Origin: Bacteroidaceae bacterium
Lineage (GTDB): Bacteria > Bacteroidota > Bacteroidia > Bacteroidales > Bacteroidaceae
Assembly (NCBI GenBank): GCA_024401185.1
Contig: JAKSLO010000005.1
Location: forward strand, 1 to 53,051
Direction of reading: 5' to 3'
Length of the DNA: 53,051 nt
Each line of letters begins with the position of its first letter. The stretch's first letter is position 1. Under the pieces are notes generated by a model. The model had not been told where the DNA came from. It saw only the letters and a list, made by a program, of their open reading frames with translations, and ran no database searches. Positions 13,959-42,714 of the stretch are shown piece after piece. The translations under genes and the position numbers were made by a program.

Positions 13959-14100
13959 CGAAGCATCGATTTGTCGAGACATCGAGTCAACGAAACATCG
14001 AAGCATCGAATTATCGAGACATCGAGTCAACGAAGCATCGATTTATCGAGACATCGAAGCATCGAAAATCGAATCAACAAATTATCGAATCATCGAAAAC
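13959..14100 (+). repeat. Octamer-period (CGANNNNN) array 1
   Basis: There are about 18 consecutive 8-bp units beginning with CGA, such as CGAAGCAT, CGAGACAT and CGAGTCAA. The phase is kept for 104 bp, then one 7-bp unit shifts it. Higher-order copies starting with CGAAGCAT are visible (five-, four- and three-unit blocks). The array begins 18 nt after the GH127 stop and ends 12 nt before the next ATG. It does not encode protein: 8 is not a multiple of 3. Confidence 0.9.
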
Positions 14101-14112
14101 AATTCCAACATC

Positions 14113-14628
14113 ATGAAATACCTACAATTCCAACATTTATTGCGCAGCAACGGCATACGCCATGCGTACAAGTGGGGAGCAGCCTTCGTGCTATTCCTCT
14201 CAGCCACCCTGGCATCAGCCAAGAGTATTGTCTTCACCCTCAACGATAAGGCAGGAACACGCGTTTATGTCCGTATTGACGGCGACGAGACACCCAAGCT
14301 CGTGATGAAGGGCGATGGCACCTTCTCCCTCAACGGCATCGAGTATGAGTTTGCCAACGTCAAGTGCTTTGAGTACAGCAAGACCGACTATACGGGCGAG
14401 AAGAACACCGTGGATGCCATACAAGACGTCTGCGACACCCCCCAGATGTGCCTGCAGGGCAACGTCATCACCTTGGCTGCCCAGCGCGATCTGGTGAGGG
14501 TGCTGAGCCTCGATGGCAAGGTGGTGCGCACGCTTCACCATGTGTCGAGCGTCAGCATGGAGGGTCTTACCCCCGGTACTTATGTGATTACTGACGGAGT
14601 TTCCACCCTAAAGATTCAAAGACGATGA
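14113..14628 (+). CDS. Secreted protein with a T9SS-sorting-domain-like C-terminus
   Basis: This 171-residue protein is not assigned to a family. A hydrophobic segment at about residues 20-36 acts as a signal peptide or anchor after an unusually long basic N-terminus, so translation could instead start further in. The last 45 residues resemble a type A C-terminal sorting domain of the type IX secretion system: 'VRVLSLDGKVVRTL', then 'LTPGTYVI' and a basic end. This suggests export across the outer membrane. Its stop overlaps the start of the metallopeptidase-like gene (ATGA), so the two are translationally coupled. Confidence 0.72.
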   Translation: MKYLQFQHLLRSNGIRHAYKWGAAFVLFLSATLASAKSIVFTLNDKAGTRVYVRIDGDETPKLVMKGDGTFSLNGIEYEFANVKCFEYSKTDYTGEKNTVDAIQDVCDTPQMCLQGNVITLAAQRDLVRVLSLDGKVVRTLHHVSSVSMEGLTPGTYVITDGVSTLKIQRR

Positions 14629-16625
14629 AGAAGATACTTTTCTCTGTCCTTTGGCTCACCATGGCTGGTAATGCCATGGCACAAAATGCACGCCCCGACA
14701 CCATATGGTTTCGCTACGACAACCGCTTCACACCCAACAAGGAGTACCCCATCGCTGCCTACGACACCATTGAACTGGGCGAATCGCGCATGACGCTTCG
14801 CAAACCCAATGGCGAAACAGGCGTGAAGACCATCAGCTATCAAGTCACTACGCCTGGCGTGTTTATGTTTACCAATCCTGGACGCTACCTTTACAAACCC
14901 TCGTCCATGAACTGCGACTTCACCAAGTCCACCAGCCAATGGTGCTTTGAGCGTTCGCAGGAGAGCGAGCATTTCGTGGTGTTCTGGGAGGACGGGGTGA
15001 GCTTCGACAAGAAGTACATCCTCGAACGTGCTGAGAAGGCATGGGATGTGTATGTCAACAAGCTCGGTTTCCTCACTCCTGGCAAGAGCAAGGGCACGGA
15101 CAAATACAAGATTGTGATGCGCATGTACAAGACGGGCGACTGGGTGGCAAGTGGTAGTGGCGAGGATAATGCCGTGGGCACGCTCAACCTCTCCAAGTCG
15201 GCCTATCAGGCTCGTGGCGGACATACCGTGGCTCACGAGGTGGGTCACACCTTCCAGTTCCTTACCGGTGTGGACAACGCTTCCAAGGGTATGGGTGGCT
15301 TTGGCTGGGGCTTTGCAGCCAACGGAGCCGGCGACAACTGCTTCTGGGAGGATTGCGCCAACTGGCAGGCATACAAGGTGTATCCCGAACGTCAGTTTAC
15401 CTACGATGAGTACTTTGACGGATACATGAACACCTGCCACCTCAACCTGCTGCACGAGGATGCACGCTACAACAACTGCTACTACCAGGATTACCTCTGC
15501 CAGGTGTTCGGACAAGACTTCATCGGACGCATCTGGCGTGAGTGCAAGCGCCCCGAGGACCCTGTTGATGCCATACGTCGCCTGCAGAACCTCAGTCAGG
15601 ACGATTTCTCCAAGCTCATGTACGACTGCTTCGCTCACATGTGCACGTGGGACATTGACGAGGTACGCTCGTATGCCCATCATCGCATAGGTTCCCATCC
15701 CTACCGTCTGGAATCCCTACAGGTGGATGGAGAGGAGTGGTTCCAGCCAAGTGCAAAGTATTGTCCGCAGAACTATGGCTATAACATTACCGAACTAAAG
15801 GTGCCTGCCGCGGGTACTACTGTCAAGGTCAGTTTCAAGGGGTTGCCTGGTGAAGCGGGTTACAAGAGCGTGTATAAGAACCGTGCCGGATGGCGCTGGG
15901 GACTTGTCACTCTTATGGAGGATGGCAGCACGCAGTATGGTGACATGCAGAGCGACATTGAGGCAACGCTCACCTGTACCCTTCCTGAAGGAGCCAAGCG
16001 TATGTGGCTGGTAGTGATGGGTGCTCCCACTGTATGGTGGCATCATGAGTGGGATCGCAATAATGTCGCTCCCTCCACCAACGACGAGCAATGGCCTTAT
16101 AGGGTACACTTCGAGGGTACGCATCCTGCTGCCATCAAACGTGTGTTCACGGCCGACGACTTCCCTGCCGACTATGTTCGTCGCGACACCACAATAACCG
16201 TGGAGGCTACCCTGGCACGTGCCAACGACTACTTAGGCGTCTATGTACAGTACGATACCGATGCTATAAGCGAGGCTTTGGGTCTTACCACCGAACAGCT
16301 ACACACCTTAAAGTGTAATGCCTCTGCCAATCCACGTTTTGTAGCCATTGGCAGCAATGGTAGTGTCACGAGCAATACCACCACCTCAACTTCCAGCGCC
16401 ACCGTACTGGGTCATTGGTTCACCACTGCGGGCAACGTCTGTGGCTACGACAACAACGCGGCCATTTATGCCGAGCTCTCCACAAGCGATTACCAATGCA
16501 AGGTAGGTCAATACCCCAACCGCCTTACTGCTGGCAAGACCTACACCATCAAGCAAGCCGTCTATCACAAGGTAGGCACCAAGACCTACAAGGCCACCAT
16601 CGTGGTCAAGCTGCACGTCATCTGA
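14625..16625 (+). CDS. Secreted DUF6055-like protein with HEVGH zinc-peptidase motif
   Basis: This 666-residue protein has a signal peptide (cleavage near AMAQ/N). The central region (about 100-360) carries 'HTVAHEVGHTFQF', an HExxH zinc-binding motif, and resembles the DUF6055 family. Beta-rich segments follow, the last (about 510-666) resembling DUF4859. I infer a surface or secreted metal-dependent hydrolase, but no substrate can be named, and HExxH-bearing DUF6055 proteins have no firm biochemistry that I know of. It overlaps the previous gene by 4 nt and ends the three-gene run that starts with GH127. A dispersed hairpin repeat lies 86 bp downstream. Confidence 0.8.
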   Translation: MKKILFSVLWLTMAGNAMAQNARPDTIWFRYDNRFTPNKEYPIAAYDTIELGESRMTLRKPNGETGVKTISYQVTTPGVFMFTNPGRYLYKPSSMNCDFTKSTSQWCFERSQESEHFVVFWEDGVSFDKKYILERAEKAWDVYVNKLGFLTPGKSKGTDKYKIVMRMYKTGDWVASGSGEDNAVGTLNLSKSAYQARGGHTVAHEVGHTFQFLTGVDNASKGMGGFGWGFAANGAGDNCFWEDCANWQAYKVYPERQFTYDEYFDGYMNTCHLNLLHEDARYNNCYYQDYLCQVFGQDFIGRIWRECKRPEDPVDAIRRLQNLSQDDFSKLMYDCFAHMCTWDIDEVRSYAHHRIGSHPYRLESLQVDGEEWFQPSAKYCPQNYGYNITELKVPAAGTTVKVSFKGLPGEAGYKSVYKNRAGWRWGLVTLMEDGSTQYGDMQSDIEATLTCTLPEGAKRMWLVVMGAPTVWWHHEWDRNNVAPSTNDEQWPYRVHFEGTHPAAIKRVFTADDFPADYVRRDTTITVEATLARANDYLGVYVQYDTDAISEALGLTTEQLHTLKCNASANPRFVAIGSNGSVTSNTTTSTSSATVLGHWFTTAGNVCGYDNNAAIYAELSTSDYQCKVGQYPNRLTAGKTYTIKQAVYHKVGTKTYKATIVVKLHVI

Positions 16626-16711
16626 CGAGAAAGGCTGTGAGTCCGAATTTTTCAATTTATTTTGATTATACTATTAGGTTCTTACAGCCTGCACTCGGGG
16701 ATAACACACTC

Positions 16712-16795
16712 TGCTTACGTCTGGCTTACGTCAAAACACGTAAGCCAGACGTAAGCCAATTATGCGCTCATAGGGTGCTGATTGGAGGAAAAACG
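16712..16795. repeat. Dispersed 84-bp repeat A with 19-bp perfect hairpin, copy 1
   Basis: This stretch is identical over 84 bp to 47612-47695. It opens with a perfect 19-bp inverted repeat: arms at 16713-16731 and 16738-16756 with the 6-nt loop CAAAAC. Each arm is itself a direct repeat of GCTTACGT separated by CTG. Weaker similarity continues on both sides for about 180 bp in total. It is not part of a gene. It could be a REP-like or MITE-like element or a conserved structured RNA. Confidence 0.85.
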
Positions 16796-16880
16796 TATGA
16801 AAACTGCACCATTTCTGCGTCAGTAAAGACAATTATTCAGTATTCGTTTTGTAAAATTTTTCACAAGAAAATGAACCTGA

Positions 16881-17030
16881 GTTAGTTTTTGGAGTCAAGA
16901 AATCAGGAGAGGTGAGAAGTTAAAGGACAATACGTCTGCAGATGAATTGTTAAGGCCATTGGGCTTGACGAAGTCCACTCGGTACAAGCCACAGGCAACG
17001 AACAACCCAAACGAGAAAGTTTCAGCATAA
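16881..17030 (+). pseudogene. Possible gene remnant (49 codons, no start)
   Basis: A stop-to-stop frame of 49 codons reads like a real protein tail ('DELLRPLGLTKSTRYKPQ' near the middle) but has no ATG, GTG or TTG start. I do not recognise the family. It sits between repeat A and the hairpin at 17133 in a 615-bp gap, a setting that favours decayed mobile or accessory genes. Chance coding potential is not excluded. Confidence 0.25.
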
Positions 17031-17132
17031 TGCCATTTGATGCAGATTCCAGCTCATGGCATTATCATTTTTTGGATGACGGAAGGCGTTGGTCATCTTG
17101 CTACGAAAGTGATTTATCAACACAAAAAGAAG

Positions 17133-17182
17133 CACAGAGACACGGAGATTTTCTTTATCACACAAATCTCTGCATCTCTGTG
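17133..17182 (-). terminator. Inverted repeat downstream of GH31, likely terminator
   Basis: Two 19-nt arms, CACAGAGA...GAGATTT and its complement, pair with three mismatches around a 12-nt loop. On the minus strand the hairpin is followed by CTTCTTTTT, so it can end the GH43-GH31 transcript. Similar CACAGAGNCACAGAGA stretches seem familiar from other Bacteroidota intergenic regions (from memory, not checked). Confidence 0.55.
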
Positions 17183-17240
17183 CATTCTATATCTATAAGA
17201 CTCACAAACCTAAAGAGGAGACAGGAGTCAATACATCAAG

Positions 17241-19724
17241 CTATTTTACCACAGTCTTCTTGCCTTTGTAGGTAATCTGTTTGGTCTTACCACCAATGAC
17301 CTTGATTGTCATGGCAATAGGCTTGTTAAGACTGGCATCGCCCTGACGGTCGGAAATGCTGAGTGTACGCTTCTTATCATTCCACTTCAAGGTGAATGTA
17401 GAAGTGCCCTTCGACTCTTCGTACTCATAGCCATCACCATTGTCCTGATAGACCGTAAACTCGGCATCACGACCGGGATAAACCCTGATCTCCCAGGGGG
17501 TATCGGTATAGAGCTGACTGTACTCCACCGTCTGCGAGAGAGGTAGGATGCTACCCTCGCGCATGTAATGAGGAATGCGGTTGATAGCCGACTTCACCTG
17601 AAGGGTCTGACCACCCTCATAACGCTGGTTGGTGTAGGCATCGTACCAGGCATTGCCCTTGGGCAGGTAAACCGAACGTGATGTGCCTGCATCCGACTCA
17701 GGACCCTCTGGCGAAGCATCGGTGACAGGAGCCACCAGCATGGCAGGACCAAACATGAACTCATCCTTGATGTCGAGCACCTTGCTGTCCTGAGGATAGT
17801 CGAATGCCAGACAACGAGTCATGGTGTAGCCCTCCTGGGTGATGCGCGATGCCAGCGAATAGGTGTAGGGCAACATGCGGTAGCGCAGGTTGATGCAATC
17901 CATGATGGCATCGTAGAAACGTGTACCGGGTTCGCCAAACTGCCAGGGTTCGCGAGGAGTGTCGGAACCATGACTGCGCATCACGGGCAGGAAGGTGCTG
18001 TACTGCAACATACGCACATAGAACTCGCGATAGGCAGGATCCTTGCATCCGTTGGGATACTCACCGGCATAGAACCATGCCCATCCCTTACGGGTAAAGA
18101 AGCATCCGGCATCTACCGTCCAGTAAGGGCAACCGGTTGCCATGTAGTTAAGACCTGCGGGAATCATCTGCTTGAACTGCTTCCAGCTGGCATAGGTGTC
18201 ACCATTCCACACGATGGTACCGTAGCGCTGCTCACCAGCATAGCTGCTTCGGGTGAGGTTGACCACACGCTTGGCACTACTTGCCTCACGCTGGTGCTCA
18301 TAGATGCCACGGGCGTGGTAGAGAGAGAAGAGCTGACTGCGCTCATTGCCTAAGGCATCGCCAAGTTTCTTACTCTGCAACTTCCAGCGCTCCTCATGGT
18401 TGTCGGCACCATAGTTGGCACCACGGTTTGACCAGTCGGCATCCAGAGGCTCGGAAGAATCGCACCACCAGGCATCAAAGTCATTCTTGAAGAACTCGTT
18501 ATTGGCATAGCTCCAGTAAAGGTCGCGTGCCTCCTTACGGAAGGCATCATATACATTCTGACCAGGGAACAGGTAACCGCGGTTCTTGAAATCGTCATAC
18601 TGAGGCGAGTTTGACATATTGGGCCAGATGGAAATCATCAGTTTGGCATTCATGGCATGCACATCGTTAGCCATCTTCTTCTTGTCAGGGTAGCGCGAAG
18701 CCTCCATGCTCATAGTACCCCAGCTGCCATCCTTCCAGTAGTTCCAATCCTGCACAATGCAGTCGATGGGGATGTGACGCTTGCGGAACTCACGCAACGT
18801 GTTCACCAGGTCGTCCTGCGAATAGTAACGCTCCTTGCTCTGCGTATAGCCAAACACCCAGAGGGGCATCATGGGAACCTGTCCGGTAAGCCAGCGATAG
18901 GCAGCCACGGTGGCATCCATATTATGACCCTTCATGAAGTAATAGTCGAGCGCCTGAGCAGCCTCCACCTCTACCACGGTGCAACCATTGGCCTGGGTGT
19001 CGTCGAACATCATGGCACTACCGGCATCGAAGAGGATGCCATAGCCAGCCGTGGAGTTGAGCACGGGAACCATAGCCTTCAGGTTGTGCTGAGCCAGAAA
19101 CTGCTTCTTGCCACGCAGATTCATATAGTCCTCCATGTGCTGACCCAAACCGTACATGGCTTCGCCTCTCTGCAACTGCAACTGCAGGCGATACTGCCAA
19201 GTGCGACCCACGGTGTCACGGCGCAACACGTCCATACGCTCCTTCTCGCCATCCACGGTCTTCTCAATGCGACGTGTCGATTCATCATAGATGACGTTCT
19301 CGGTAACCTGAAGCGTAGAGGGATGTGGATTGTCATGCTCCGACAGCAACGCCCTACCCTTATGGTCGCAATACGTAATCTTGCCCGTGAGGGTATTAAT
19401 GCCCACCTGCAAACTGTCGGAATAGAGCACGACGCTTGAATCGCCCTGCTTAACATCCTTCAGATACGACTTGGAAAGCGCATCGGGATAGACCTCAGCA
19501 TAGTTGCATACTCCAGTAGTATTCTTGTAACCAGCTTCGTGAGAGGCTATGACATGCACGATGTCGGGACGAACGAACGTGACATTGAGCAGACTTCCAT
19601 CTGCCAACTTCACTTCTACTCCTTTTCCTTTCTCTACACTAACCTTATCAACATTAATCGCCGACGCACTGAGGCACGTCGACGATATAATTGTAAATAA
19701 GGAAATACGACGAAGAAATCTCAT
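17241..19724 (-). CDS. Secreted GH31 alpha-glycosidase
   Basis: This 827-residue protein has a signal peptide (cleavage near SASA/I). The order is an N-terminal beta-sandwich (about 25-240), the GH31 TIM barrel, and C-terminal beta domains including a DUF5110-like segment. The catalytic nucleophile is Asp422 in 'WWCDSSEP' and the acid/base Asp is in 'RSHGSDTPREPW'. 'WVFGYTQSKERY' opens the barrel as usual. GH31 members hydrolyse terminal alpha-glucose or alpha-xylose; which applies here is not clear. It is the second gene after GH43 (21-nt gap), probably one transcript controlled by the hybrid two-component regulator next door. Confidence 0.92.
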   Translation of the reverse strand: MRFLRRISLFTIISSTCLSASAINVDKVSVEKGKGVEVKLADGSLLNVTFVRPDIVHVIASHEAGYKNTTGVCNYAEVYPDALSKSYLKDVKQGDSSVVLYSDSLQVGINTLTGKITYCDHKGRALLSEHDNPHPSTLQVTENVIYDESTRRIEKTVDGEKERMDVLRRDTVGRTWQYRLQLQLQRGEAMYGLGQHMEDYMNLRGKKQFLAQHNLKAMVPVLNSTAGYGILFDAGSAMMFDDTQANGCTVVEVEAAQALDYYFMKGHNMDATVAAYRWLTGQVPMMPLWVFGYTQSKERYYSQDDLVNTLREFRKRHIPIDCIVQDWNYWKDGSWGTMSMEASRYPDKKKMANDVHAMNAKLMISIWPNMSNSPQYDDFKNRGYLFPGQNVYDAFRKEARDLYWSYANNEFFKNDFDAWWCDSSEPLDADWSNRGANYGADNHEERWKLQSKKLGDALGNERSQLFSLYHARGIYEHQREASSAKRVVNLTRSSYAGEQRYGTIVWNGDTYASWKQFKQMIPAGLNYMATGCPYWTVDAGCFFTRKGWAWFYAGEYPNGCKDPAYREFYVRMLQYSTFLPVMRSHGSDTPREPWQFGEPGTRFYDAIMDCINLRYRMLPYTYSLASRITQEGYTMTRCLAFDYPQDSKVLDIKDEFMFGPAMLVAPVTDASPEGPESDAGTSRSVYLPKGNAWYDAYTNQRYEGGQTLQVKSAINRIPHYMREGSILPLSQTVEYSQLYTDTPWEIRVYPGRDAEFTVYQDNGDGYEYEESKGTSTFTLKWNDKKRTLSISDRQGDASLNKPIAMTIKVIGGKTKQITYKGKKTVVK

Positions 19725-19745
19725 TGTATCCTTAGTTGTTTTGTC

Positions 19746-21815: not shown

Positions 21816-21865
21816 TTTGAAAAGAATAAAAATTAGTTTTTGCTAAATTAGTTTTAGATTTTCTG

Positions 21866-21873
21866 CAAAGATA
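21866..21873 (-). promoter_or_regulatory. Minus-strand -7 box (TATCTTTG) for GH43-GH31
   Basis: CAAAGATA on the plus strand gives TATCTTTG, 50 bp upstream of the GH43 start. The nearest CAAA that could be a -33 (21898-21901) is 24 bp away, longer than the norm, so activation by a regulator is plausible. Confidence 0.55.
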
Positions 21874-22021: not shown

Positions 22022-22027
22022 GGTTTA

Positions 22028-22094: not shown

Positions 22095-25000
22095 ATGAAA
22101 GATTCTATTGTCAGCAGGATATACATACTGATTATTACTTGTCTTTTTTCACAGAACACACATAGTCAAACCAACCGTTTATATACCACGCAACAAGGAT
22201 TGGCTACAAGTGACATATCGTCTTTGTGCATAGACAGCCGTGAACTGGCATGGATTGCCGGCAAGAACACCATCGGGTATTTTGATGGTGCTCAGTTCCA
22301 TTACATCCCCAACAACGATTCTCGCACAGGACAACCCTTGTTCAGCAACGCATTGGCCATCACGGAGGACGAAAACGACAACTTCTGGGTAGCCACCAAT
22401 CGTGGTTTGATGTACTTTGACAGTCACAAGCTGAAATTCGAGCACATCGAACTGAATGAGGATGAAAGCAACATAGGCGGTTATTCCATCAAGCAAATCA
22501 TAGACATACCCACTCGCAAGAACACCAAGCTCATCATCACAGAAGGTTATGGTGTGCACTTTTTCGACACCAAGACACACAAGGTATTAGAAAAAGAAAC
22601 CAAGAAACTGCAAGAGCAGATTGAGGAGTCGTTTGTTGTGAACGCACACATCGACACCCGAAACCGCATTTGGCTCTCCACTATAAGAAAAGACTTGAAA
22701 TGCTATGATTGCAAGACACTTGAGCCTGTAGATTTTGAAATAACGCCAAGTGCAAGGGAGTTGATGCAGAAAAGCAACATGTCGGAAATAGTAGAGGTGA
22801 AAGAGAGAAAAGCACTCTACATGGCCACCTACTCGGGATTGCTGAAATTCGATGAGAAGGCACACCGACTGGAAGTAGTGACAAGCGCCATAGGCAAAAA
22901 CATACAAGCCCTGCTCTACACACACAATGAGGAGCTGCTTGCCGGAACCGACAGCGAAGGAATATGGAAAATCAACGAAGACGACTCATTAGAGAAATAC
23001 GAGGTGAGCGACCAGCAGTTCGACCTCTCATTCGGCAAAGTGCGCGACATGGTGCAGGACAATGATGGGAACATACTCATCGCCTTCCTACAGAAAGGTC
23101 TGCTCGTCATCCCTCATCGCAGGGATGAGTTCCGCTACCATGCCATCTCGTTCAACAAGAATGGGAAGAACACCTCATGTGTAACATCTATAGCTACCGA
23201 TAGCAAGAACAACTTCTGGATAGGAACCGATGGCGCAGGTGTGTTCTGCACACAAGGAGCCAATCTCCAGACGGCAAGTCCTGTAAACCAAGGCCTTCGC
23301 TCGCTTTTGGTACAGTCAGTAGTAGTGGACAAGAGCGACAACATCTGGGTAGCCACCTACGGAGGTGGAGTGCAGCTATGGGCAGGCGACCATTTTGAGA
23401 CACCTCATTGGCTGGAGATGCTTGCCAACATGAACATCAAGGGAATGCACTATGACAAGCTCAACAACCTGATCATTGTGGCGTCAAACGGAAACGGAGT
23501 CTTTGTGGTCAATCCCGAAACACACACGTTTGAAGGACGATGGGTGCAAGGACAAAGTGCATGGATCTCTACCGTGTACGTGGACAACGACGAAACCCTG
23601 TGGATTGGTGACGTGTCGGGTGTTTACTTTATCGACAAGAACAACGAGCAGGGCAGCATCAAGCCAGACATCATAAAGGGAACGCCCAACTGCATCATCA
23701 CCATGGGTAGTGGCAAAGACAAGAAAGCGCTGATTGGTACCACAAACGGCATAGTCATCTACCATGTGGCCACACAGCAAACAGAACGTATTCTTGATCA
23801 CGAAAACGTGGCAGCCTTCAACGAATCTCCCAACGACATCTGGGTATCTGCCTCAAACCGCATCTATGCCATCAACAAACAAACGATGAAGATGGAACGC
23901 TACAACTCCATCGGAGGATTCTACGTAGGCGAGTTTCACCAAGGGGCAGCACTCAACAAGAAAGGTGAGCTCTTCTTTGGTTGCGACAACGGTATCATCA
24001 GTTTCGACCCACGAGGCATCAGACAGCCACACAAGATTGCGAGTCAGATTCTCTTCACCAGCCTTCGCGTAAATAATGCCATCATCAACTATAGCGACAG
24101 TACCGTCTATCTTGACAAGGCATTACTTTATGCCGACAAAATCACCCTACCCTACGACGAGAATTCTTTCCGCCTTACCTTTAGCGCGCCACACCTGAGT
24201 TCACCTCGTCAGGTGCAATATGAATACATGCTGGAAGGATATGACGAGCATTGGGTGCCCTGCACACTCATGCAGTCGGCTTACTACAACAACCTGCCCT
24301 CGGGAAACTACATACTAAAGGTACGCGCATACATAGAGGGTGACCCTGCCAGCGCCATCGACAAGACTATACGAATAAAAGTGTTGGCTCCCTGGTATGA
24401 TACAACATGGGCACACATTATTTATATATTGATATTTGCAGCCATAGCCTACATCACCTGGCTGTTCATGAAAAACCGTCGTGAGCAACGCAGAGCCCTT
24501 CGTGCCGCCTTGCATAACGAGGAAATCAAGGAGGCCAAGTTGCGCATGTTCACAAGCATCGCCCACGAGCTGCGTAACCCCCTCACCATGATTGTATCAC
24601 CTCTGAACCACCTCATTACAGTATTCGATGACGAGAAGGATGCTGCACATGCAAATCGCGAAAACGTGCAGAACAATCTGCAAATCATGAAGCATAACTG
24701 CAACCGATTGCTCGACATCGTAAAGCAGATTACAGATATCCGCAAGATTGATGCGGGACAATTCCGCTTGCATTTCAGAGAGGTTAACATATGTGAGTAT
24801 ATCCGCAACATCGCCACCTCGTTCTTGGGAGCAGCCAAGATGAAGAACATCACTTTCACGGTGGATGACAGCGAATCAGTAATACCCGCATGGATTGATC
24901 CCGTTCACTTCGAGAAGATTATCGTAAACATACTCTCGAATGCCTTCAAATTCTGTCCCGAAGGCAACCGCATCACCATGCGCAACCGTATCGTGGGCAA

Positions 25001-26171
25001 GAATGTAGAGATCAGCATCTATAACAGCGGTTCCAGCATTGAGGAATCAGCGTTGGAGCACATCTACGAGCGCTTCTACCAGGGCGATTCAGGCAAGAGC
25101 CACTCGGGTTCGGGTATAGGACTTAATCTGGCTTACGAACTGGTACACCTGCATCATGGCAGCATCAAGGCACAAAACATACAACCCGATGGTGTGGAGT
25201 TTGTAGTGACCATTCCCTTAGGTTCATCGCACCTCACAACAGAAGAACTGGCTCAACCCAAGGAGGAAGCGGAGAAGGATGCAAATCATGACAGTGTGAC
25301 CGTAAAGGTGAAGGATCTTGCCACCGAGACAAAGACAGAGGAAGGCAAGAGCGAGGCAACCGACACAAAGAGAATACCCTCGCTACTCATCGTGGATGAC
25401 AAGAAGGACATCCTGGAATACCTGAAGGGTGAATTACAGGGTGACTATAACGTAAGTTTGGCATTTAGTGGTAATAGCGCATGGAACATGGTACTGCAGA
25501 ACCGACCCGACGTGATTGTTACCGACATGAAGATGCCTGATGGCAATGGAATAGAGCTGTGCCGTAACATCAAGTCCAACCCAGAACTTGACCACATACC
25601 CATCATTATGCTAACGGGCGAAGGTGACGAACAGGTTCAGTTGGAGAGCATCAACCTCAGCGTGGACCATTACATGCAGAAGCCTTTCAACATCATCATC
25701 CTCAAAGGATTACTGCGTCAGGTGCTGCGTGTACGTGAGAGCATGAAGAAACACATCAAGCGTTCTGACATAAACAACGACTATGAAAGCATCGAGATGG
25801 ATTCGGCAGAGGATCGTCTGTTCTCACGCATCAACGACTCTTTGCAGAAGCACCTTGATGATTCAGAGTTTGGTGTGCAGGAACTGGCCGACGATATAGG
25901 CATCAGCCGCGTGCATCTGAATCGCAAGATGAAAGAAAGATACGGATTGTCGCCCAACATCTTCATACGTAGTTTCCGACTGAAGCAAGCTGCCTATCTG
26001 CTTGTGCACAATAAGGTAAATGTGAGCGAGGTAGCTTATAGAGTAGGATTCTCAACGCACTCGTATTTTACAAGCTCATTCCACGAATATTTCGGAATGA
26101 CTCCAAAGGAGTTTGTCACAGCTCATGCTGATGGAGAAAACGACGAAGCCCTTAAGAAGCTACTTGAATAA
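22095..26171 (+). CDS. Hybrid two-component system regulator (HTCS)
   Basis: This 1358-residue protein combines sensor, kinase, receiver and transcription factor. After a signal or anchor segment come about 14 propeller-type repeats (two blades sets, about 25-670) and a Y_Y_Y domain, all periplasmic. A transmembrane helix lies near 773-792. The HisKA domain has the phosphoacceptor His824 in 'IAHELRNP'; the ATPase domain follows with 'SGSGIGLNL'. The receiver has Asp1144 in 'VTDMKMPDG', and an AraC HTH pair fills about 1250-1345. Such proteins sense oligosaccharides and switch on the adjacent polysaccharide-use genes, here GH43 and GH31. An octamer array starts 17 nt after the stop. Confidence 0.95.
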   Translation: MKDSIVSRIYILIITCLFSQNTHSQTNRLYTTQQGLATSDISSLCIDSRELAWIAGKNTIGYFDGAQFHYIPNNDSRTGQPLFSNALAITEDENDNFWVATNRGLMYFDSHKLKFEHIELNEDESNIGGYSIKQIIDIPTRKNTKLIITEGYGVHFFDTKTHKVLEKETKKLQEQIEESFVVNAHIDTRNRIWLSTIRKDLKCYDCKTLEPVDFEITPSARELMQKSNMSEIVEVKERKALYMATYSGLLKFDEKAHRLEVVTSAIGKNIQALLYTHNEELLAGTDSEGIWKINEDDSLEKYEVSDQQFDLSFGKVRDMVQDNDGNILIAFLQKGLLVIPHRRDEFRYHAISFNKNGKNTSCVTSIATDSKNNFWIGTDGAGVFCTQGANLQTASPVNQGLRSLLVQSVVVDKSDNIWVATYGGGVQLWAGDHFETPHWLEMLANMNIKGMHYDKLNNLIIVASNGNGVFVVNPETHTFEGRWVQGQSAWISTVYVDNDETLWIGDVSGVYFIDKNNEQGSIKPDIIKGTPNCIITMGSGKDKKALIGTTNGIVIYHVATQQTERILDHENVAAFNESPNDIWVSASNRIYAINKQTMKMERYNSIGGFYVGEFHQGAALNKKGELFFGCDNGIISFDPRGIRQPHKIASQILFTSLRVNNAIINYSDSTVYLDKALLYADKITLPYDENSFRLTFSAPHLSSPRQVQYEYMLEGYDEHWVPCTLMQSAYYNNLPSGNYILKVRAYIEGDPASAIDKTIRIKVLAPWYDTTWAHIIYILIFAAIAYITWLFMKNRREQRRALRAALHNEEIKEAKLRMFTSIAHELRNPLTMIVSPLNHLITVFDDEKDAAHANRENVQNNLQIMKHNCNRLLDIVKQITDIRKIDAGQFRLHFREVNICEYIRNIATSFLGAAKMKNITFTVDDSESVIPAWIDPVHFEKIIVNILSNAFKFCPEGNRITMRNRIVGKNVEISIYNSGSSIEESALEHIYERFYQGDSGKSHSGSGIGLNLAYELVHLHHGSIKAQNIQPDGVEFVVTIPLGSSHLTTEELAQPKEEAEKDANHDSVTVKVKDLATETKTEEGKSEATDTKRIPSLLIVDDKKDILEYLKGELQGDYNVSLAFSGNSAWNMVLQNRPDVIVTDMKMPDGNGIELCRNIKSNPELDHIPIIMLTGEGDEQVQLESINLSVDHYMQKPFNIIILKGLLRQVLRVRESMKKHIKRSDINNDYESIEMDSAEDRLFSRINDSLQKHLDDSEFGVQELADDIGISRVHLNRKMKERYGLSPNIFIRSFRLKQAAYLLVHNKVNVSEVAYRVGFSTHSYFTSSFHEYFGMTPKEFVTAHADGENDEALKKLLE

Positions 26172-26188: not shown

Positions 26189-26348
26189 CGAGAAATCTAA
26201 AAGCGAAGAAATCGATAATTCAAAGAACTGAAACACAGAGAAATCGACAATTCGATGAACCGAAGAACCGAAATGTCAAGAAAGCGACAATTCGATTCTT
26301 CGAAAAATCGAGGATACCAAAATTCGTTAATTCGAAAATCCGAACCTA
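26189..26348 (+). repeat. Octamer-period (CGANNNNN) array 2
   Basis: There are twenty 8-bp units; CGA or a one-base variant falls on phase at almost every step from 26213 to 26348, for example CGACAATT, CGATGAAC, CGAAGAAC and CGAAAAAT. The array begins 17 nt after the HTCS stop and ends just before the terminator at 26353, so it forms nearly the whole 3' UTR. The post-stop sequence AAGCCAGA is shared with array 3. Confidence 0.9.
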
Positions 26349-26352: not shown

Positions 26353-26388
26353 AAAAGCTCCCGAAGCACGTTGACTTCGGGAGCTTTT
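26353..26388. terminator. Bidirectional terminator between HTCS and glgP
   Basis: A 14-bp perfect stem, AAAAGCTCCCGAAG / CTTCGGGAGCTTTT, with an 8-nt loop lies between convergent genes. It has T-runs on both strands. Confidence 0.9.
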
Positions 26389-26451
26389 ATTATGTTTATG
26401 TATTGTATTATGTGAGATTGCTAAATGCAACTACTCACACATGGCCGGCAA

Positions 26452-32293: not shown

Positions 32294-32358
32294 CATGTCT
32301 TTTCCGATATATTCATGAAATAAGGCATCCATTTTTACTTTAGGTGCACTTAGGGTGC

Positions 32359-32408
32359 ACTCAGGGAGCGCTCACAAAACCGTGGAGAAACGTGAGCGCA
32401 CCCTGAGT
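32359..32408. repeat. Dispersed hairpin repeat B, copy 1
   Basis: Arms of 17 bp (ACTCAGGGAGCGCTCAC at 32359-32375 and its partner at 32392-32408) pair with one mismatch around a 16-nt loop containing CGTGGAGAA. Outer TTAGGT / ACCTAA bases can extend it. A related copy is at 47822-47870. The 32294-32807 gap holds this element, the TCGCGACG repeat at 32624 and no gene. Confidence 0.75.
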
Positions 32409-32623
32409 AAACCTAATGTGAAGAGTAAAGGATGACAGACAAAATGCCCACGTGAAAAGCCCTACTGTAACACACATTTTCGCGAGAATTCGCGTTAAAA
32501 AGGAAATTTATTGCCCTTTGGTGGGCTCCACTTGCGCCTGAGCCTTACAGCAAAGAACATAAATGCCCATAATTACCCGTAAATTTAATCGTAAATTCTA
32601 TTTGTTCAGGAGGAGACTTTTTA

Positions 32624-32687
32624 GATTCGTCGCGACGTAGCAATTGTTTCCTCGCGACGTAGCAATTGTTTCCTCGCGACGTAGCAA
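32624..32687 (+). repeat. 22-bp tandem repeat (CGCGACGTAGCAATTGTTTCCT), about 2.6 units
   Basis: Two full units at 32631-32652 and 32653-32674 are identical, and a third is partial. With the preceding GATTCGT the first unit forms a 31-bp perfect inverted match to 327-357. The unit contains the palindromic CGTCGCGACG at the upstream end and CAATTG in its middle. No coding sense is seen. Confidence 0.85.
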
Positions 32688-32807
32688 AATATTCCCATCT
32701 GTGTGTGCATAATGATTCTGACACAGATGACTGATGGTGTATAACTGAATCCGTATAACTACAGACAATCGTGAAAAGACAGACAGAGTTCTATTATTTA
32801 TTCGCGA

Positions 32808-36115: not shown

Positions 36116-36157
36116 GGTGTGTTGTATTTTAATTGATTATTTCAAGGTTACATATAT

Positions 36158-37288: not shown

Positions 37289-38037
37289 TCTTTGATTCCC
37301 AAAAAGCGTTCTGCCCTTTTGAGGTCTTCAGGGGTGTCAATTCCTATTGTCTCCTGCTGCGTAACTCCCACCTTGATGGTCAAGCCATTTTCAATCCAGC
37401 GCAGTTGTTCAAGACTTTCAGCCAGCTCAAGCGTTGATTGTGGCAACGAAGTAATACGTTGCAGGGCATCAGCACGATACGCATACATGCCGATGTGTTT
37501 ATAGAACGTATGCTTTTTCAGCCACTCGTTCTTGTCAACTCCACGCAGATAAGGTATTACGCTTCGTGAAAAATACATGGCACGCATATTATTATCAAGC
37601 ACCACCTTAGGCGAATTAGGGTTCTCCAAGGCGGCTATGCCGTCATCTTCCGTGAAGGGTTTTACCAGAGTGGCAATATCCACGTTATCGTCGTTAAAGC
37701 ATTGGCAGAGCTGCTTAATCTGCTCGGGTTGTATGAAGGGTTCGTCACCTTGAATATTGACAATTACATCATACTTCTCGCCCAGTTTGCTATAAGCCTC
37801 CATCACGCGGTCAGTTCCACTTCTATGTTCGGTACTGGTCATCACCACTTTTCCGCCAAATGCTGCCACGGCATCAAATATCCTCTTGTCATCGGTAGCC
37901 ACTACTACCTCGTCAAGTATGCCTTCCACTTGTCGGTACACACGTTCTATGATCTGCTTGTCCCCCAGCATCACCAAAGGCTTACCCGGAAAACGCGTAG
38001 AAGCATATCTTGCTGGTATGATACCAATTATTTTCAT
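37285..38037 (-). CDS. kdsB: 3-deoxy-manno-octulosonate cytidylyltransferase
   Basis: This 250-residue cytosolic enzyme activates Kdo as CMP-Kdo for lipopolysaccharide inner-core synthesis. The N-terminus 'IIPARYASTRFPGKPL' is the CTP-binding loop, 'VVVATDD' and 'TSTEHRSGTDRV' follow, and 'NIQGDEPFI' carries metal-binding acids. The length is normal. I chose the ATG at 38037; one 6 nt earlier is also possible. It starts 14 nt after the PBP1A stop and overlaps the MORN gene by 4 nt, so it is inside a tight operon. Confidence 0.95.
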   Translation of the reverse strand: MKIIGIIPARYASTRFPGKPLVMLGDKQIIERVYRQVEGILDEVVVATDDKRIFDAVAAFGGKVVMTSTEHRSGTDRVMEAYSKLGEKYDVIVNIQGDEPFIQPEQIKQLCQCFNDDNVDIATLVKPFTEDDGIAALENPNSPKVVLDNNMRAMYFSRSVIPYLRGVDKNEWLKKHTFYKHIGMYAYRADALQRITSLPQSTLELAESLEQLRWIENGLTIKVGVTQQETIGIDTPEDLKRAERFLGIKE

Positions 38038-38051
38038 ATACAAATTACTAT

Positions 38052-40382
38052 TTAATACTCAATCAATTCATCCAAGCCTGTAGGATCATTGGGTATAGAC
38101 AATCCGTCGTCATACATTCCATCACAATCCACATGGTCGGCAGGTATGCTGAAATCCTCATAGGGAGAAATACCCAATGAAGCATCCTGGAAAACTTTCT
38201 TAAGGAACAAGGCACAGATAGGCAAGCCTGAAGCAGCACCCTGTGCGTATGCCATAGAACTGAAATGGATGTCACGGTCATCACCTCCTACCCATGCACC
38301 AAAGGTGAGCGAAGGAGTATATCCCATGAACCAACCATCAGAGTTCTCGTTTGTGGTACCTGTCTTTCCACCCATAGGGCATTGAATGCCATACTTGCCA
38401 CGCATACGGTAACCCGTACCATTATTCACAACACCCTTCATCAAGGTTATCATTCGGTAGCTTGAAGCTGCGCTGATAACTTCTTTCGATTGTGGAGGCA
38501 AACCATTCGACAAGTCTGCCAGGGTGTTACCTTCAGCATCCTCGATGCGTGTCACGTAGATGGGTTTACGTCGCACACCCTTGTTGGGGAAGGCAGAATA
38601 AGCACCCACCATCTCAGCCAACGAAATCTCGATGGCACCCAGACAAAGCGTATATACAGGCTCTATCTTCTTCTGCATGATGCCGAATGCCTTGAGCGTT
38701 TCCACAAACTGGAAAGGAGTGAGTGCGTCAATGAGGAATGCTGAAACCGCATTGTTAGATGATGCAAGAGCGGCCTTGAGGGTAATCATTCCACCCTCAC
38801 CACCACCACGAGGAGTCCATCCGTGGTAAGTACGCTTCTCATTGGGCACCTCATCACAAGGATTCATATTTGACTCCATAGCCAGCGAGTAAAGGAAAGG
38901 TTTGATGGTTGAACCCACCTGACGCTTACCACTGGTTACCATATCATATTGGAAATGTGAATAGTTCAAACCACCCACATAAGCCCTGATTTCACCTGTT
39001 TTGTTGTCCATACACATAAACGAGGCACGCAGGAATCGTTTGTAGTAAAGCAACGAATCCATAGGTGTCATGGTGGTATCAATATCCCCATTGGGTGAAT
39101 AAAGTGTCATATCCACAGGGGTATCAAACGACTTACGAATCTCCTCTTCACTAAAACCAGCCGTCTTCATCTCATTCCAGCGACCACTCTGTCGCATGGC
39201 CTTATCTATCAAGCTCTGACGACGCTTGTCGTCCGTACGCGAACTATAAGGAGCCTTCTTGTTACCCTTCAGTTCCTTCTCGAAAGCAGGCTGCAAGGTT
39301 TGTGCCACATGCTCATAGACAGCCTCTTCTGCATATTTCTGCATGCGAGAGTCGATGGTAGTGTAAATTTTCAAGCCATCGGTATAGAGGTTGTAATATT
39401 CCCCGTCTCTCTTCTTGTGCTTGTTGCACCAGCCATAAAGCGAGTCGTTCTCCCATGCCAGCGAATCTTCGTAGAATTTCTGCTCTTGCCATGCCTGATA
39501 ATCCTCTATGACAGGTTTCTTGGCCATCAGCACCTGGCGCAGATACTCTCTCAGATAAGTACCAGTACCTTCCTTATGGTCCTGACGGGTATAATGCAAG
39601 GTAAGCGGTTCTGCCTTACAACTATCGTATTGAGCCTCGGTAATGTAACCCGAGCGAACCATCTGTCCAAGTACCACGTTTCGGCGCTCCTCACAACGCT
39701 TGGGGTGACGCACAGGATTGAAGTAAGAGGGATTCTTACACATACCCACCAATACCGCACATTCATTGATAGTCAAGTCCTTGGGTTCCTTGTCAAAATA
39801 GGTCTTTGAAGCCGTCTTGATACCCACGGCATTATGTAGGAAATCAAAATAGTTGAGGTAAAGCGTGATGATTTCCTCTTTCGTATAATAGCGTTCCAGT
39901 TTGAGGGCAATAACCCACTCGATAGGCTTCTGAAGCAGACGTTGCTTGGTGTTTTCGGCCTTTTCACTATACAACTGCTTAGCCAACTGCTGAGTCAGCG
40001 TACTACCACCACCAGCGTTCTTCCTACCCATCAATCCACGCTTTATCACAGCACGTCCAAGTGCCTTGAAATCAATACCACAATGGTCGTAGAATCGTTC
40101 ATCCTCGGTAGCCACCAATGCCTTGACAAGCATGGGTGGGAGTTCATCATAACTTACAAAGATACGGTTGGCACTTGAATAGCTCCAGGTACCAATGAGC
40201 TTGCCGTCGGCGGTATAGACCTGAGAAGCAAATTTGTTGACGGGATTCTCCAACTGACTCAATTCCGGCATATAACCGATTGAGCCTTTAAAAATCATAT
40301 AAAACAGCACAAATACCGTAATAATTCCAGCCACCAAAAGTGTCCAGAGTACGATAAAAGCTTTTTTGCGAATCTTCTTCAT
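38052..40382 (-). CDS. Class A penicillin-binding protein (PBP1A type)
   Basis: This 776-residue bifunctional peptidoglycan synthase has a single N-terminal transmembrane anchor (about 10-31). The GT51 transglycosylase has Glu93 in 'ATEDERFYDH' and the second motif 'GGGSTLTQQLAKQLY'. The transpeptidase has the Ser491-x-x-Lys motif 'GSTIKPF', then 'SSNNAV' (SxN) and 'GKTGTTNENSDGWF' (KTG). All catalytic motifs are intact. It is the first gene of the five-gene minus-strand run (PBP1A, kdsB, MORN, glgB, membrane protein) and has a TATCTTTG promoter box upstream. Confidence 0.95.
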   Translation of the reverse strand: MKKIRKKAFIVLWTLLVAGIITVFVLFYMIFKGSIGYMPELSQLENPVNKFASQVYTADGKLIGTWSYSSANRIFVSYDELPPMLVKALVATEDERFYDHCGIDFKALGRAVIKRGLMGRKNAGGGSTLTQQLAKQLYSEKAENTKQRLLQKPIEWVIALKLERYYTKEEIITLYLNYFDFLHNAVGIKTASKTYFDKEPKDLTINECAVLVGMCKNPSYFNPVRHPKRCEERRNVVLGQMVRSGYITEAQYDSCKAEPLTLHYTRQDHKEGTGTYLREYLRQVLMAKKPVIEDYQAWQEQKFYEDSLAWENDSLYGWCNKHKKRDGEYYNLYTDGLKIYTTIDSRMQKYAEEAVYEHVAQTLQPAFEKELKGNKKAPYSSRTDDKRRQSLIDKAMRQSGRWNEMKTAGFSEEEIRKSFDTPVDMTLYSPNGDIDTTMTPMDSLLYYKRFLRASFMCMDNKTGEIRAYVGGLNYSHFQYDMVTSGKRQVGSTIKPFLYSLAMESNMNPCDEVPNEKRTYHGWTPRGGGEGGMITLKAALASSNNAVSAFLIDALTPFQFVETLKAFGIMQKKIEPVYTLCLGAIEISLAEMVGAYSAFPNKGVRRKPIYVTRIEDAEGNTLADLSNGLPPQSKEVISAASSYRMITLMKGVVNNGTGYRMRGKYGIQCPMGGKTGTTNENSDGWFMGYTPSLTFGAWVGGDDRDIHFSSMAYAQGAASGLPICALFLKKVFQDASLGISPYEDFSIPADHVDCDGMYDDGLSIPNDPTGLDELIEY

Positions 40383-40408
40383 TTAACTATTTATAGACAA
40401 TATTTCTG

Positions 40409-40416
40409 CAAAGATA
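40409..40416 (-). promoter_or_regulatory. Minus-strand -7 box (TATCTTTG) for the PBP1A operon
   Basis: CAAAGATA on the plus strand reads TATCTTTG and lies 26 bp upstream of the start at 40382. Confidence 0.6.
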
Positions 40417-40522
40417 CTAATAATATTTAAAAAACGCGTGCGTGCATCGTATTTTTTGGTAAAATTTAAATTATTCTGTCAATCAATTAACAAAAAACAA
40501 GTGCCAATATGCATTTTTTTTG

Positions 40523-40530
40523 TAACTTTG
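40523..40530 (+). promoter_or_regulatory. -7 box (TAACTTTG) for the 40604 gene
   Basis: TAACTTTG matches the consensus 73 bp upstream of the ATG. No standard -33 is visible. Confidence 0.5.
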
Positions 40531-40603
40531 AACTCAATTATAAAAGTGTTTTAACTTTTCCGTAAAGTAATTGCTTTGTAAATTATATGATTTTGGCATA
40601 AAG

Positions 40604-40960
40604 ATGGACGTACTGAAAATAATAGGAATAGTAGCGGTTGGCATAATCGTTATGATAGTCGAATTTAAGTTTAACTCTTGGTTTTATGGCTCAAAAGGTC
40701 CTATGAATGTAGGTAATCCAGACGATGTGCAAGGCAATCTTGACAAGCTAAGGGAACGTGGACACATCACCCAGGAACAGTATGACTCTGCCGTTTCGGG
40801 TTTGAAAGCAACGCAGAACAATGACGAGTTTGCTTATATTCAGAAATTAAGAGATGATAATTATATTACTGAGGAACAATACATTACCATCAAGGCTAAT
40901 ATGCTTAAGCAGAAGGGCGTAATCGAAAATCCTCAAGAAAAGAGCGACGCACAGGTTTAA
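40604..40960 (+). CDS. Membrane-anchored protein with two SHOCT-like domains
   Basis: This 118-residue protein is counted from the ATG at 40604; an in-frame TTG at 40571 is rejected because it adds a non-conserved polar leader. One transmembrane helix (about 5-22) is followed by two copies of a SHOCT-like helical hairpin: 'LDKLRERGHITQEQYDSAV' and 'IQKLRDDNYITEEQYITIK'. SHOCT domains are short oligomerisation modules found at protein ends; here they make up nearly the whole soluble part. The partner and function are unknown. It is divergent from PBP1A and upstream of pyrB with a 106-nt gap. Confidence 0.78.
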   Translation: MDVLKIIGIVAVGIIVMIVEFKFNSWFYGSKGPMNVGNPDDVQGNLDKLRERGHITQEQYDSAVSGLKATQNNDEFAYIQKLRDDNYITEEQYITIKANMLKQKGVIENPQEKSDAQV

Positions 40961-41066
40961 TGCATGCTCTGTGGTATTTAATTTAATCTCAGCCACACCC
41001 ATTTACCCAAGCCAGTGGGGCAAGGTAATTACGGCTTATATCCGAAATATTGAAAAATAACATAGT

Positions 41067-42008
41067 ATGAATCGTAGTTTAGTTACTATTGCTGAACATT
41101 CTCGCGAGAAGATAGAATATCTCCTTGAGATGGCAACAGAGTTTGAGAAGCATCCTAATCGACGCATTTTGGAAGGAAAGGTTGTGGCAACCTTATTCTT
41201 TGAACCATCCACCCGTACTCGTTTGAGTTTTGAAACTGCAGCCAACCGTCTTGGAGCTCGTGTCATTGGCTTCGCCGACCCTAAGGTGACAAGTGGCACC
41301 AAGGGCGAGACGCTGAAGGACACCATCATGATGGTAAGCAACTATGCTGACATCATCGTCATGCGCCACTATCTCGAAGGAGCTGCACGATATGCCAGCG
41401 AGGTGGCTCCCGTACCCATTGTGAACGCTGGCGATGGTGCCAACCAACACCCTTCGCAAACCATGCTCGACCTGTATAGCATCTACAAGACACAAGGCAC
41501 GCTTGAGAATCTCAACATCTATATGGTGGGCGACCTCAAATACGGACGTACCGTGCATAGTTTGCTGATGGCTATGCGCCACTTCAACCCCACATTCCAC
41601 TTTATTGCTCCCGATGAACTGGCTATGCCTGAGTATTACAAGCAGTACTGCAAGGAGCACGACATTCGTTATGTAGAGCACAAGGACTTTGATGCCGATA
41701 CCATCTCGGGTGCTGACATCCTTTACATGACGCGAGTACAGCGTGAGAGATTCTCCGACCTGGTGGAATACGAACGTGTCAAGGACAGCTACCTTCTCAA
41801 GCTCAACATGCTAGGCAAGGCAAGGAAGAACATGAAGATACTTCACCCCCTGCCCCGTGTCAATGAGATTGAATACAGCATCGACGAGACGCCCTATGCT
41901 TATTACTTCCAGCAGGCAGGCAATGGTCTCTTCGCACGTCAGGCACTTATCTGCGATGCCTTAGGCATAACGCTCGACGAGGTAAAGAACGACAAGACTA
42001 TCATTTAA
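41067..42008 (+). CDS. pyrB: Aspartate carbamoyltransferase catalytic subunit
   Basis: This 313-residue enzyme makes carbamoyl-aspartate in pyrimidine synthesis. The carbamoyl-phosphate site '[10 protein letters not shown]' covers residues 46-55, 'HPSQT' lies at 128-132 and 'HPLPRVNEI' near the C-terminus closes the active site. The length is standard. pyrI follows after 17 nt, giving the dodecameric class B enzyme known from enterobacteria. No attenuator-type pyrimidine leader could be recognised upstream. Confidence 0.96.
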
Positions 42009-42025
42009 CCCACTACCATTTTAAT

Positions 42026-42481
42026 ATGAAAAGACAAGAATTACAAGTGGCAGCCCTTGAAAATGGTACTGTCATCGACCATATCCCATCAGCCAAGCTC
42101 TTTGCTGTAGTGAGCCTTCTCCACCTTGAGGAATGCAAGACCGCTGTCACCGTAGGCTTCAACCTTAAGAGCAAGAAGATGGGACACAAGAGCATCATCA
42201 AGATTGCCAACAAGTTTTTCACCGACGAGGAACTGAACCAGTTAGCAGTAATCACTCCCAACGTTTCACTTTGCATCATACGCGATTACGAGGTAGTAGA
42301 GAAGAAGACCGTAAGACTCAGCGATGACATCAAAGGCATCATCAAATGCAATAACCCCAAGTGCATTACCAACAACGAGCCTATGTACACACGCTTCCAT
42401 GTGCTTAATCACGACACAGGAACCATCTGCTGCCATTACTGCAACACACAGCAGCACCTCGATGAAGTAAAGCTCTGCTAA
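42026..42481 (+). CDS. pyrI: Aspartate carbamoyltransferase regulatory subunit
   Basis: This 151-residue subunit binds nucleotide effectors and links catalytic trimers. The zinc site is complete: Cys108 and Cys113 in 'KCNNPKC', Cys136 and Cys139 in 'CCHYC'. The allosteric N-terminal domain begins '[14 protein letters not shown]', with the conserved GTVIDHI block. It is translated just after pyrB. An octamer-period repeat array begins 19 nt after the stop and fills the gap to glyA, so whether glyA is co-transcribed is open. Confidence 0.96.
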
Positions 42482-42500
42482 AGCCAGAGGGAGGGAAAAA

Positions 42501-42714
42501 CGAAAGGCCGAAACCTCGACATCTCGAAAAATCGAGAAATCGAAGAATCGAAACATCGGAAACCCGAAATATCGACACATCGACATCTCGAAACATCGAA
42601 AACCCGAAGAATCGTCACATCGAGAAATCGAAGAATCGAAACATCAAGAACTCGAAGAATCGGCACATCGAGAACTCAAAAACTCGAAGAATCCCCCTCG
42701 AAACATCACAGCAA
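42501..42714 (+). repeat. Octamer-period (CGANNNNN) array 3
   Basis: There are about 27 units, with CGA or a one-base variant at every eighth base from 42501 to 42692 without slippage. Frequent words are CGAAGAAT, CGAAACAT and CGAGAAAT. One 6-bp unit then shifts the phase. The array fills the pyrI-glyA gap. It starts 19 nt after the pyrI stop, and the leading sequence AAGCCAGAG matches that after the HTCS stop. Confidence 0.92.

Follow-up and report, generated by a model that had tools for sequence, protein, structure and literature searches.

A 53,051-nucleotide stretch of DNA from a Bacteroidaceae bacterium (JAKSLO010000005.1, positions 1-53,051; hereafter the window) carries three intergenic arrays in which the triplet CGA recurs every 8 bp. 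The genome is Prevotella-like, measures 2.87 Mb in 180 contigs, and is 83% complete. The part that would explain the arrays, a candidate partner protein, is encoded outside the window. We consider it probable, at roughly 0.6, that the arrays belong to a two-part system, in which a protein is paired with cognate arrays dispersed in the genome, and are thus protein-partnered repeats with the logic of repetitive extragenic palindromic (REP) sequences and their REP-associated tyrosine transposases (RAYTs) and with an unrelated protein. Genes of the protein family stand beside arrays, the step and core of the arrays are specific to the protein, this genome holds a cognate gene, and arrays are found at new sites. 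The partnership is widespread and, as far as we could find, seemingly undescribed.

The arrays (Table 1) are present where the initial annotation had placed them and are far beyond chance. Self-identity at a lag of 8 bases was 0.63 for array 1, 0.53 for array 2, and 0.61 for array 3, with similar values at lags of 16, 24, 32, and 40. Dinucleotide shuffles (2000 per array, covering lags 8, 16, and 24) had means of 0.28-0.30, and none reached the observed value at any of these lags. A lag-8 signal no higher than in shuffled sequence had been proposed as the refuting observation; the signal is well above shuffles in all three arrays. When the window was scanned for eight CGA units (24 letters) at periods 3-30, matches of at least 20 letters were obtained only at periods 8, 16, and 24. 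The period had been described as strict. It is regular overall, but array 1 contains one 7-bp step (from the CGA at 14063 to the next at 14070), and array 2 is the weakest of the three. The focus on period 8 reflected a real signal but was too narrow, as 8 is one of several steps: 7 bp is the commonest in stretches from the genus, and 9 and 10 bp occur with sister proteins.

A six-unit CGA pattern, allowing as many as three mismatches, matched the whole genome 340 times in the forward and 315 times in the reverse direction, compared with no match in either direction for the same pattern read backwards. In 342,528 bases of this genome we delineated 26 CGA arrays, including those of the window; these bases were mostly chosen for holding pattern matches, and array density is therefore not given. 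The 26 arrays comprise 342 units with 144 different unit words. With each array oriented by its own profile, the octamer unit has CGA at 95-98%, followed by A (54%), A (46%), C (42%) or A (31%; G only 3%), A (68%), and T (80%). The triplet is near-invariant and the spacer is loose. Spacer positions 4-7 reach only 42-68%. The proposal that the phase is maintained is supported.

The units also bear out the view that recent slippage alone is insufficient. In the 22 arrays of at least eight units, neighboring units were less alike than other pairs from the same array (500 of 500 permutations equaled or exceeded the observed value) and units two to four apart were more alike, which indicates that growth in this genome was by blocks and not by single units. 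When octamer arrays were pooled across all loci (45 arrays, picked by lag-8 self-match), the trend was the opposite, with neighbors more alike (excess 0.117). Copying of whole arrays between sites was considered and rejected, as adjacent unit pairs common to different arrays numbered 10 compared with 17.4 expected by permutation (26 arrays). Unit order is thus not common to the arrays, which share a consensus and were not simply copied whole. Extra similarity at a lag of five units, the signature of a five-part ring, was not found in the arrays of this genome (z 1.1). In the pooled octamer set the similarity falls off smoothly from lag 1 onward; the lag-5 excess (z 2.6) is only the end of this slope and was discarded as a ring signature.

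The location of all three window arrays on the strand of the upstream gene does not extend to a rule and survives as a bias only. Between co-directional called open reading frames (ORFs), 21 of the 26 arrays have a clear orientation, 16 running along the genes and 5 opposed to them; of the others, 4 lie in convergent spacers and 1 was undecided. A mechanical ORF call is overlapped by 7 of the 26. Mean folding of the 26 arrays was somewhat better than that of shuffles (mean z -2.1).

Pairs of CGA arrays ~830 bp apart occur in several genomes. Four of the five pairs examined enclose a gene for a protein of ~247 residues, and the fifth (genome G402) encloses a nucleotidyltransferase gene instead. 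Three of the four proteins were scanned. All three matched TIGR04258 (four helix bundle suffix), two of them over the cut-off; TIGR02436 and PF01396 (topoisomerase C4 zinc ribbon), over the cut-off; and PF05635 (23S rRNA intervening sequence protein), one of them over the cut-off. TIGR04258 is found in 91 of 139 genomes of the genus and in none of 14 control genomes. The best match among solved structures, a weak one by sequence, is 2gsc (E 0.001), the entry for which has five chains. Pfam and NCBIfam scans of seven family members detected the bundle, the suffix, the zinc ribbon, and weak unrelated matches, with no transposase. The family looks able to bind DNA or RNA. The member encoded by this genome had no match in phages. 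It matched 27 plasmid records, none of which spans 80% of the query; among the 15 plasmid matches listed, only that of Prevotella nigrescens is annotated as belonging to the family, and the rest are mostly to the C-terminal end. Type I restriction loci contain or adjoin a family gene in three genomes: here the gene is located between hsdM and hsdR (L341, G000:C158), and in the two others it adjoins a specificity-subunit gene (PF01420) (L445 2667-4133 in G263; L446 2133-3581 in G034).

The association of family genes with arrays was assessed using genes found by protein search only. Genes first met through arrays were dropped, simple rules defined the gene starts, each group of near-identical proteins entered the count once, and 243 other genes of the genus served as controls. 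A flank array was defined by a period of 8-10, a score of at least 14, and a position within ~260 bp of a gene end. Sufficient flank was available for 60 family genes, and 47 of these had an array near either end compared with 18 of the 243 controls (Fisher 2.6e-28). In the fully independent TIGR04258 subset the figure was 21 of 26. Arrays were present on both sides of 17 of the 60 family genes and of none of the controls, and the step was identical on the two sides in all 17 cases. The similarity of 5-mer profiles between flanks was 0.645 within the same gene and 0.095 between different genes (32 genes, array-met ones included). An earlier count at the same score found arrays upstream of 44 and downstream of 36 of 67 genes (67 of 70 kept), against 57 and 58 of 357 controls, but it mixes in genes found through arrays and takes its controls partly from array-bearing loci.

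The step (8, 9, or 10 bp) and the core of the arrays follow the subfamily to which the protein belongs. When mapped onto a tree of 85 of the 86 proteins (one of fewer than 150 residues was left out), the step changes 15 times, compared with 43 times when shuffled, and none of 200 shuffles was as low. The clade of the A1 proteins, which we call the octamer clade, mostly has step 8 with CGA or ATAACG as the core. Another large clade has one branch at step 10 with CCTAGG and several at step 9 with TCTAGA, GTCNGAC, GAGTANTC, or AAGGACYTT. Array similarity rises with protein identity (Spearman 0.52; none of 500 permutations as high in a Mantel test of 70 genes, array-met ones included). Divergence among the arrays goes along with divergence among the proteins.

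This genome encodes a member of the TCGA branch of the octamer clade. A profile of nine A1 proteins finds two proteins in it, at C22 and at C177:32-781. The C22 gene has CCGGRAYA octamers on both sides. Directly behind the second gene (G000:C177:32-781), at 780-888, is a TCGA array of the window type, part of which (C177:816-881) is matched at 80% by window array 1 in a BLAST search. The C177 protein is over the cut-off for TIGR02436 (29.3, cut-off 24) and for the zinc ribbon. Its nearest relatives by BLAST (81-83%; from this and other genera) belong to the branch whose members adjoin TCGA octamers. TIGR04258 has four matches in this genome; the copies at C155 and C158 are followed by a weak 10-bp array and a 9-bp array, respectively.

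The same association is seen at the level of genomes, scored on the presence of exact 5- or 6-unit CGA arrays. In the family, CGA arrays occur in 16 of 30 genomes with an octamer-clade protein and in 25 of 369 without (p 4e-10), and outside this genus in 10 of 21 and 22 of 344, respectively (p 1e-6). The corresponding figures for the genus are 21 of 32 and 25 of 107 (p 2e-5). Six genomes allowed both dispersed and flank arrays to be read; when their dispersed arrays were assigned to flank arrays, assignment to those of their own gene was the best of 720 possibilities.

Arrays have appeared at new sites. A glyA match is present in 129 of 139 genomes of the genus, and besides this genome we examined the 29 best (glyA 78-87% identical). 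None of these 29 has a CGA array before glyA, although in two (L219 and L222) pyrI is not adjacent; among the 30 genomes, the array in the pyrI-glyA spacer is confined to this one. Some of these relatives have short arrays of other words. The detector found TTAAACGC and GTTAAAAG, both at step 8, and inspection by eye added CCATTAAA (step 8) and GACCTTAAA (step 9). The arrays in hsdR likewise occupy new sites. At C158 of this genome a TIGR04258 gene (59.3 bits) lies between hsdM and hsdR (identified by Pfam), at a distance of 1.5 kb from hsdM, and is followed by a step-9 TCTAGANNN array. Within hsdR there are two more TCTAGANNN arrays, in frame and oriented the same way, covering approximately residues 220-246 and 418-461. 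When the protein was aligned locally with solved HsdR, its residues 208-258 and 414-466 had no match, compared with 13 residues each in the solved chain. The 9-bp step preserves the reading frame in hsdR, which octamers could not do.

Arrays of several kinds are found in relatives. Twenty stretches of glyA-bearing contigs from the genus, with 199 intergenic regions, had arrays at steps 7 (19), 8 (5), 9 (3), and 22 (8), with no arrays at steps 3-6 or 10-13 and none at any step in shuffles. Some of the 7-bp arrays form inverted pairs ~30-70 bases apart by eye. At one locus (L264, 8441-8547, 12790-12885, and 18922-19025) three gene-less inverted pairs of AGTTAAG heptamer arrays, ~40 bases apart, lie within 20 kb and by eye have the look of miniature elements. 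Other octamer arrays, with the words AAGCYAYT or AGCARACA, are found in the family (L203, L210, and L209). CGA arrays themselves are patchy, occurring in 46 of 139 genomes of the genus (five exact units), 41 of 399 of the family (six units), and 20 of 395 of the phylum. The octamer arrays of the phylum are mostly near-perfect simple repeats among the matches listed. Exact 7-unit CGA arrays on named contigs number at least 119 loci, many from unrelated phyla.

In the two-part system that we favor, the first part would be proteins with an S23/IVP-like four-helix bundle and the TIGR04258 suffix domain, with a zinc ribbon in the mainly-octamer clade. The second would be degenerate tandem arrays with a step of 8, 9, or 10 bp and cores such as CGA, ATAACG, CCTAGG, TCTAGA, GTCNGAC, and others. 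The protein would recognize its core repeated at a fixed step, and arrays so recognized would be seeded or enlarged at new, mostly intergenic sites, their creation, growth, or keeping being favored. The step would be kept because arrays grow a block of whole units at a time and because a unit without the core is no longer recognized. The protein may spread the arrays or may only bind them.

Several observations weigh against a two-part system. Scans of seven family members each with Pfam and NCBIfam found no catalytic domain, so that an active role in spreading is at most putative. The C177 protein is below the cut-off for TIGR04258 (34.3 bits, cut-off 40) and for PF05635 (31.8, cut-off 33.8). 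At the threshold used, 13 of the 60 family genes have no array, and the octamer clade itself is not uniform, as one branch of six members has step 9 (AACGT) and two further proteins have step 10. The 25 of 107 genus genomes that carry CGA arrays without a detected octamer-clade protein include some with many arrays (G464 and G402); conversely, 11 of the 32 with such a protein lack CGA arrays, and 7 of these 11 show other flank cores. The search in the family scored only up to 6 candidates per genome. In the assignment of dispersed arrays, the own flank ranked first (of 11) in only three of the six genomes. Among the 119 listed loci with exact 7-unit arrays, a family member was recognizable in three (L107, L123, and L152) in the pieces examined. 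Finally, the genomes are drafts, 51-100% complete, and the genes and genomes are related, so that tests that treat them as independent overstate the case and their probabilities are upper claims.

An alternative that shares the binding step and differs in who benefits is a regulon. Here the protein would regulate by binding RNA or DNA, perhaps as a ring, and the arrays would be landing strips with many sites, each evolved where it stands, beside a target gene. We weight this about half as much and regard it as rather unlikely. The flank arrays would then be autoregulatory, and by analogy with TRAP the fixed step may be the spacing of identical binding pockets. TRAP-type ring proteins recognize RNA triplets at regular spacing, with the step set by the distance between identical binding pockets. 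The arrays resemble such targets in that one triplet is conserved at even intervals and the bases separating its copies are free to vary; however, there is no TRAP-like domain among the Pfam or NCBIfam matches of family members. The conserved core, loose spacer, and regular step are as expected of a regulon, as are the orientation bias of 16 to 5 along genes, the five chains of the 2gsc entry, and the absence of a common unit order, which separate origins predict. Less easily accommodated are the four arrays in convergent spacers, the 9-bp arrays inside the hsdR coding sequence, the site of array 3, which is not shared with 29 relatives, and the lack of the five-unit-lag excess that a five-part ring might leave.

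The signal at canonical S23 genes is weaker than that in the suffix family. TIGR02436 is found in 177 of 233 genomes of the phylum. In the 30 best TIGR02436 genes, the flanks pair as inverted repeats in 14 and as direct repeats in 1 (beyond all 60 shuffles), compared with 3 of 89 in each orientation for control genes from the genus of the window; in the suffix family direct flanks (50 of 83) outnumber inverted ones (27). A repeat score of at least 14 was reached upstream of 7 and downstream of 3 of the 30 S23 genes, compared with none of 34 control flanks. In this genome the S23 gene at C46 is flanked on either side by GGTTTT octamers, which look inverted by eye. This copy also has a sub-threshold match (26.5 bits, cut-off 40) to bAvd, from the Avd proteins of diversity-generating retroelements, which combine a reverse transcriptase with template and variable repeats. 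We tentatively entertain a wider scheme in which four-helix-bundle proteins of the S23/IVP superfamily would be a new class of repeat-array maintainers. Each lineage would have its own core and step (7-10 bp) and would promote the formation or spread of the matching array. Such proteins could then account for much of the intergenic 7-10-bp tandem-repeat DNA of Bacteroidota, including the heptamers that flank canonical S23 genes as inverted pairs and the miniature forms that lack a gene.

The inverted flanks of these S23 genes, the gene-less inverted 7-bp pairs seen by eye in the genus, and the somewhat better folding of the 26 arrays would also fit a reading in which the arrays form the arms of an RNA that is folded or excised, like the 23S rRNA intervening sequences (IVSs) that carry an S23 gene. 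We consider this improbable, because the window arrays lie between protein genes and the suffix-family flanks are more often direct, their inversions possibly following from palindromic cores. Least probable of all is that these are ordinary long simple-sequence repeats of a favored slippage size (7-10 bp) that lie near family genes by hitchhiking: the many different words among 7-9-bp arrays of the genus, the near-perfect octamers among the phylum matches listed, the visible block duplications, and the likeness of neighbors in the pooled set suit slippage, and block duplication surely contributes, but slippage alone is a poor full account of steps and cores that vary with the subfamily of the protein and agree between the two flanks of a gene, of the sharp contrast between core and spacer positions, of neighboring units in this genome that are less alike than other pairs, and of the association with TIGR04258 genes, which is already seen in a sample of draft genomes.

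Table 1. CGA arrays of the window and the features next to them
Feature	Position	Strand	Identified by	Remarks
GH127 family gene	10908-13940		Pfam	5' of array 1
CGA octamer array 1	13959-14100	+	read directly	spacer between GH127 family gene and 171-aa ORF; contains 40-bp (5-unit) duplication
171-aa ORF	14113-14628			3' of array 1; without Pfam match
Hybrid two-component regulator gene	22095-26171		Pfam	5' of array 2
CGA octamer array 2	26189-26348	+	read directly	3' spacer of hybrid two-component regulator gene; most decayed
Terminator-like hairpin and T run	~26357-26392		by eye	3' of array 2
pyrI	42026-42481	+	Pfam PF01948 and PF02748	5' of array 3
CGA octamer array 3	42501-42714	+	read directly	pyrI-glyA spacer; 24 in-phase units
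glyA	42750-44030	+	Pfam PF00464	3' of array 3

The window holds further repeats. A 183-bp dispersed repeat at 16680-16862 and 47580-47762 (83% identical) contains an inverted repeat built on GCTTACGTCTGGCTTACGT and looks like a miniature mobile element. A second related repeat pair lies at 32347-32429 and 47810-47891 (78% identical). Repeats of 22 bp around TCGCGACGTAGCAATTGT are found at 314-366 and 32615-32689, in opposite orientation at the two places. Arrays of 22 bp also occur in 8 of the 199 intergenic regions of the genus and may be another family of the same kind.

The initial annotation knew of no named Bacteroidota element of this form. We also found none in the open-licence literature searched, nor any link of TIGR04258 or suffix-domain proteins with repeats, although a description elsewhere is possible. 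Among known elements, the IVS with its S23 ORF sits in 23S rRNA with terminal inverted repeats and has been called a selfish element (PMC4990558). The partner protein probably shares its S23/IVP four-helix bundle. However, the window arrays lie in protein-gene spacers (no search aimed at rRNA was made), and the protein has in addition the suffix domain and zinc ribbon. The TAACTGA heptamers are intergenic tandem repeats with a patchy distribution among taxa, Bacteroidetes among them, and of unknown function, described in an article that also reviews long simple sequence repeats of 5-11 nt (PMC4679880). They repeat a single word directly and have no identified partner, whereas the arrays here have degenerate units and a partner family. 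Likewise, long simple sequence repeats and short tandemly repeated repetitive (STRR) sequences are near-identical head-to-tail copies, in contrast to the 144 words among 342 units of this genome. MacGregor suggested a repeat-binding protein as the possible mobile part for the TAACTGA heptamers (PMC4679880), and this is the closest printed idea that we found.

The closest parallel in organization is with REP/REPIN sequences and RAYTs. These are short, dispersed extragenic repeats with a partner gene that is flanked by cognate repeats, co-diverges with them, and is present in relation to repeat abundance (PMC2817692). In the present system the partner gene is also flanked by cognate repeats (47 of 60 genes on either flank compared with 18 of 243; on both flanks only 17 of 60), repeats and partner co-diverge, as judged by the step on the tree and the Mantel test, and partner presence correlates with that of CGA arrays, with exceptions both ways. 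On the other hand, the RAYT is a tyrosine transposase and the seven family members scanned have no transposase domain. The repeats differ as well, REPs being palindromes of 20-40 bp in inverted pairs whereas these are tandem arrays with an 8-10-bp step and flanks that are more often direct. The subfamily-matched step and core make part of the bacterial-repeat puzzle testable, by binding and knock-out, against a candidate protein. The partnership would point to a role for TIGR04258 and, perhaps, for S23-type proteins, which are abundant. It would also mean that the way of life known from REP-RAYT has been reached with a second kind of protein.

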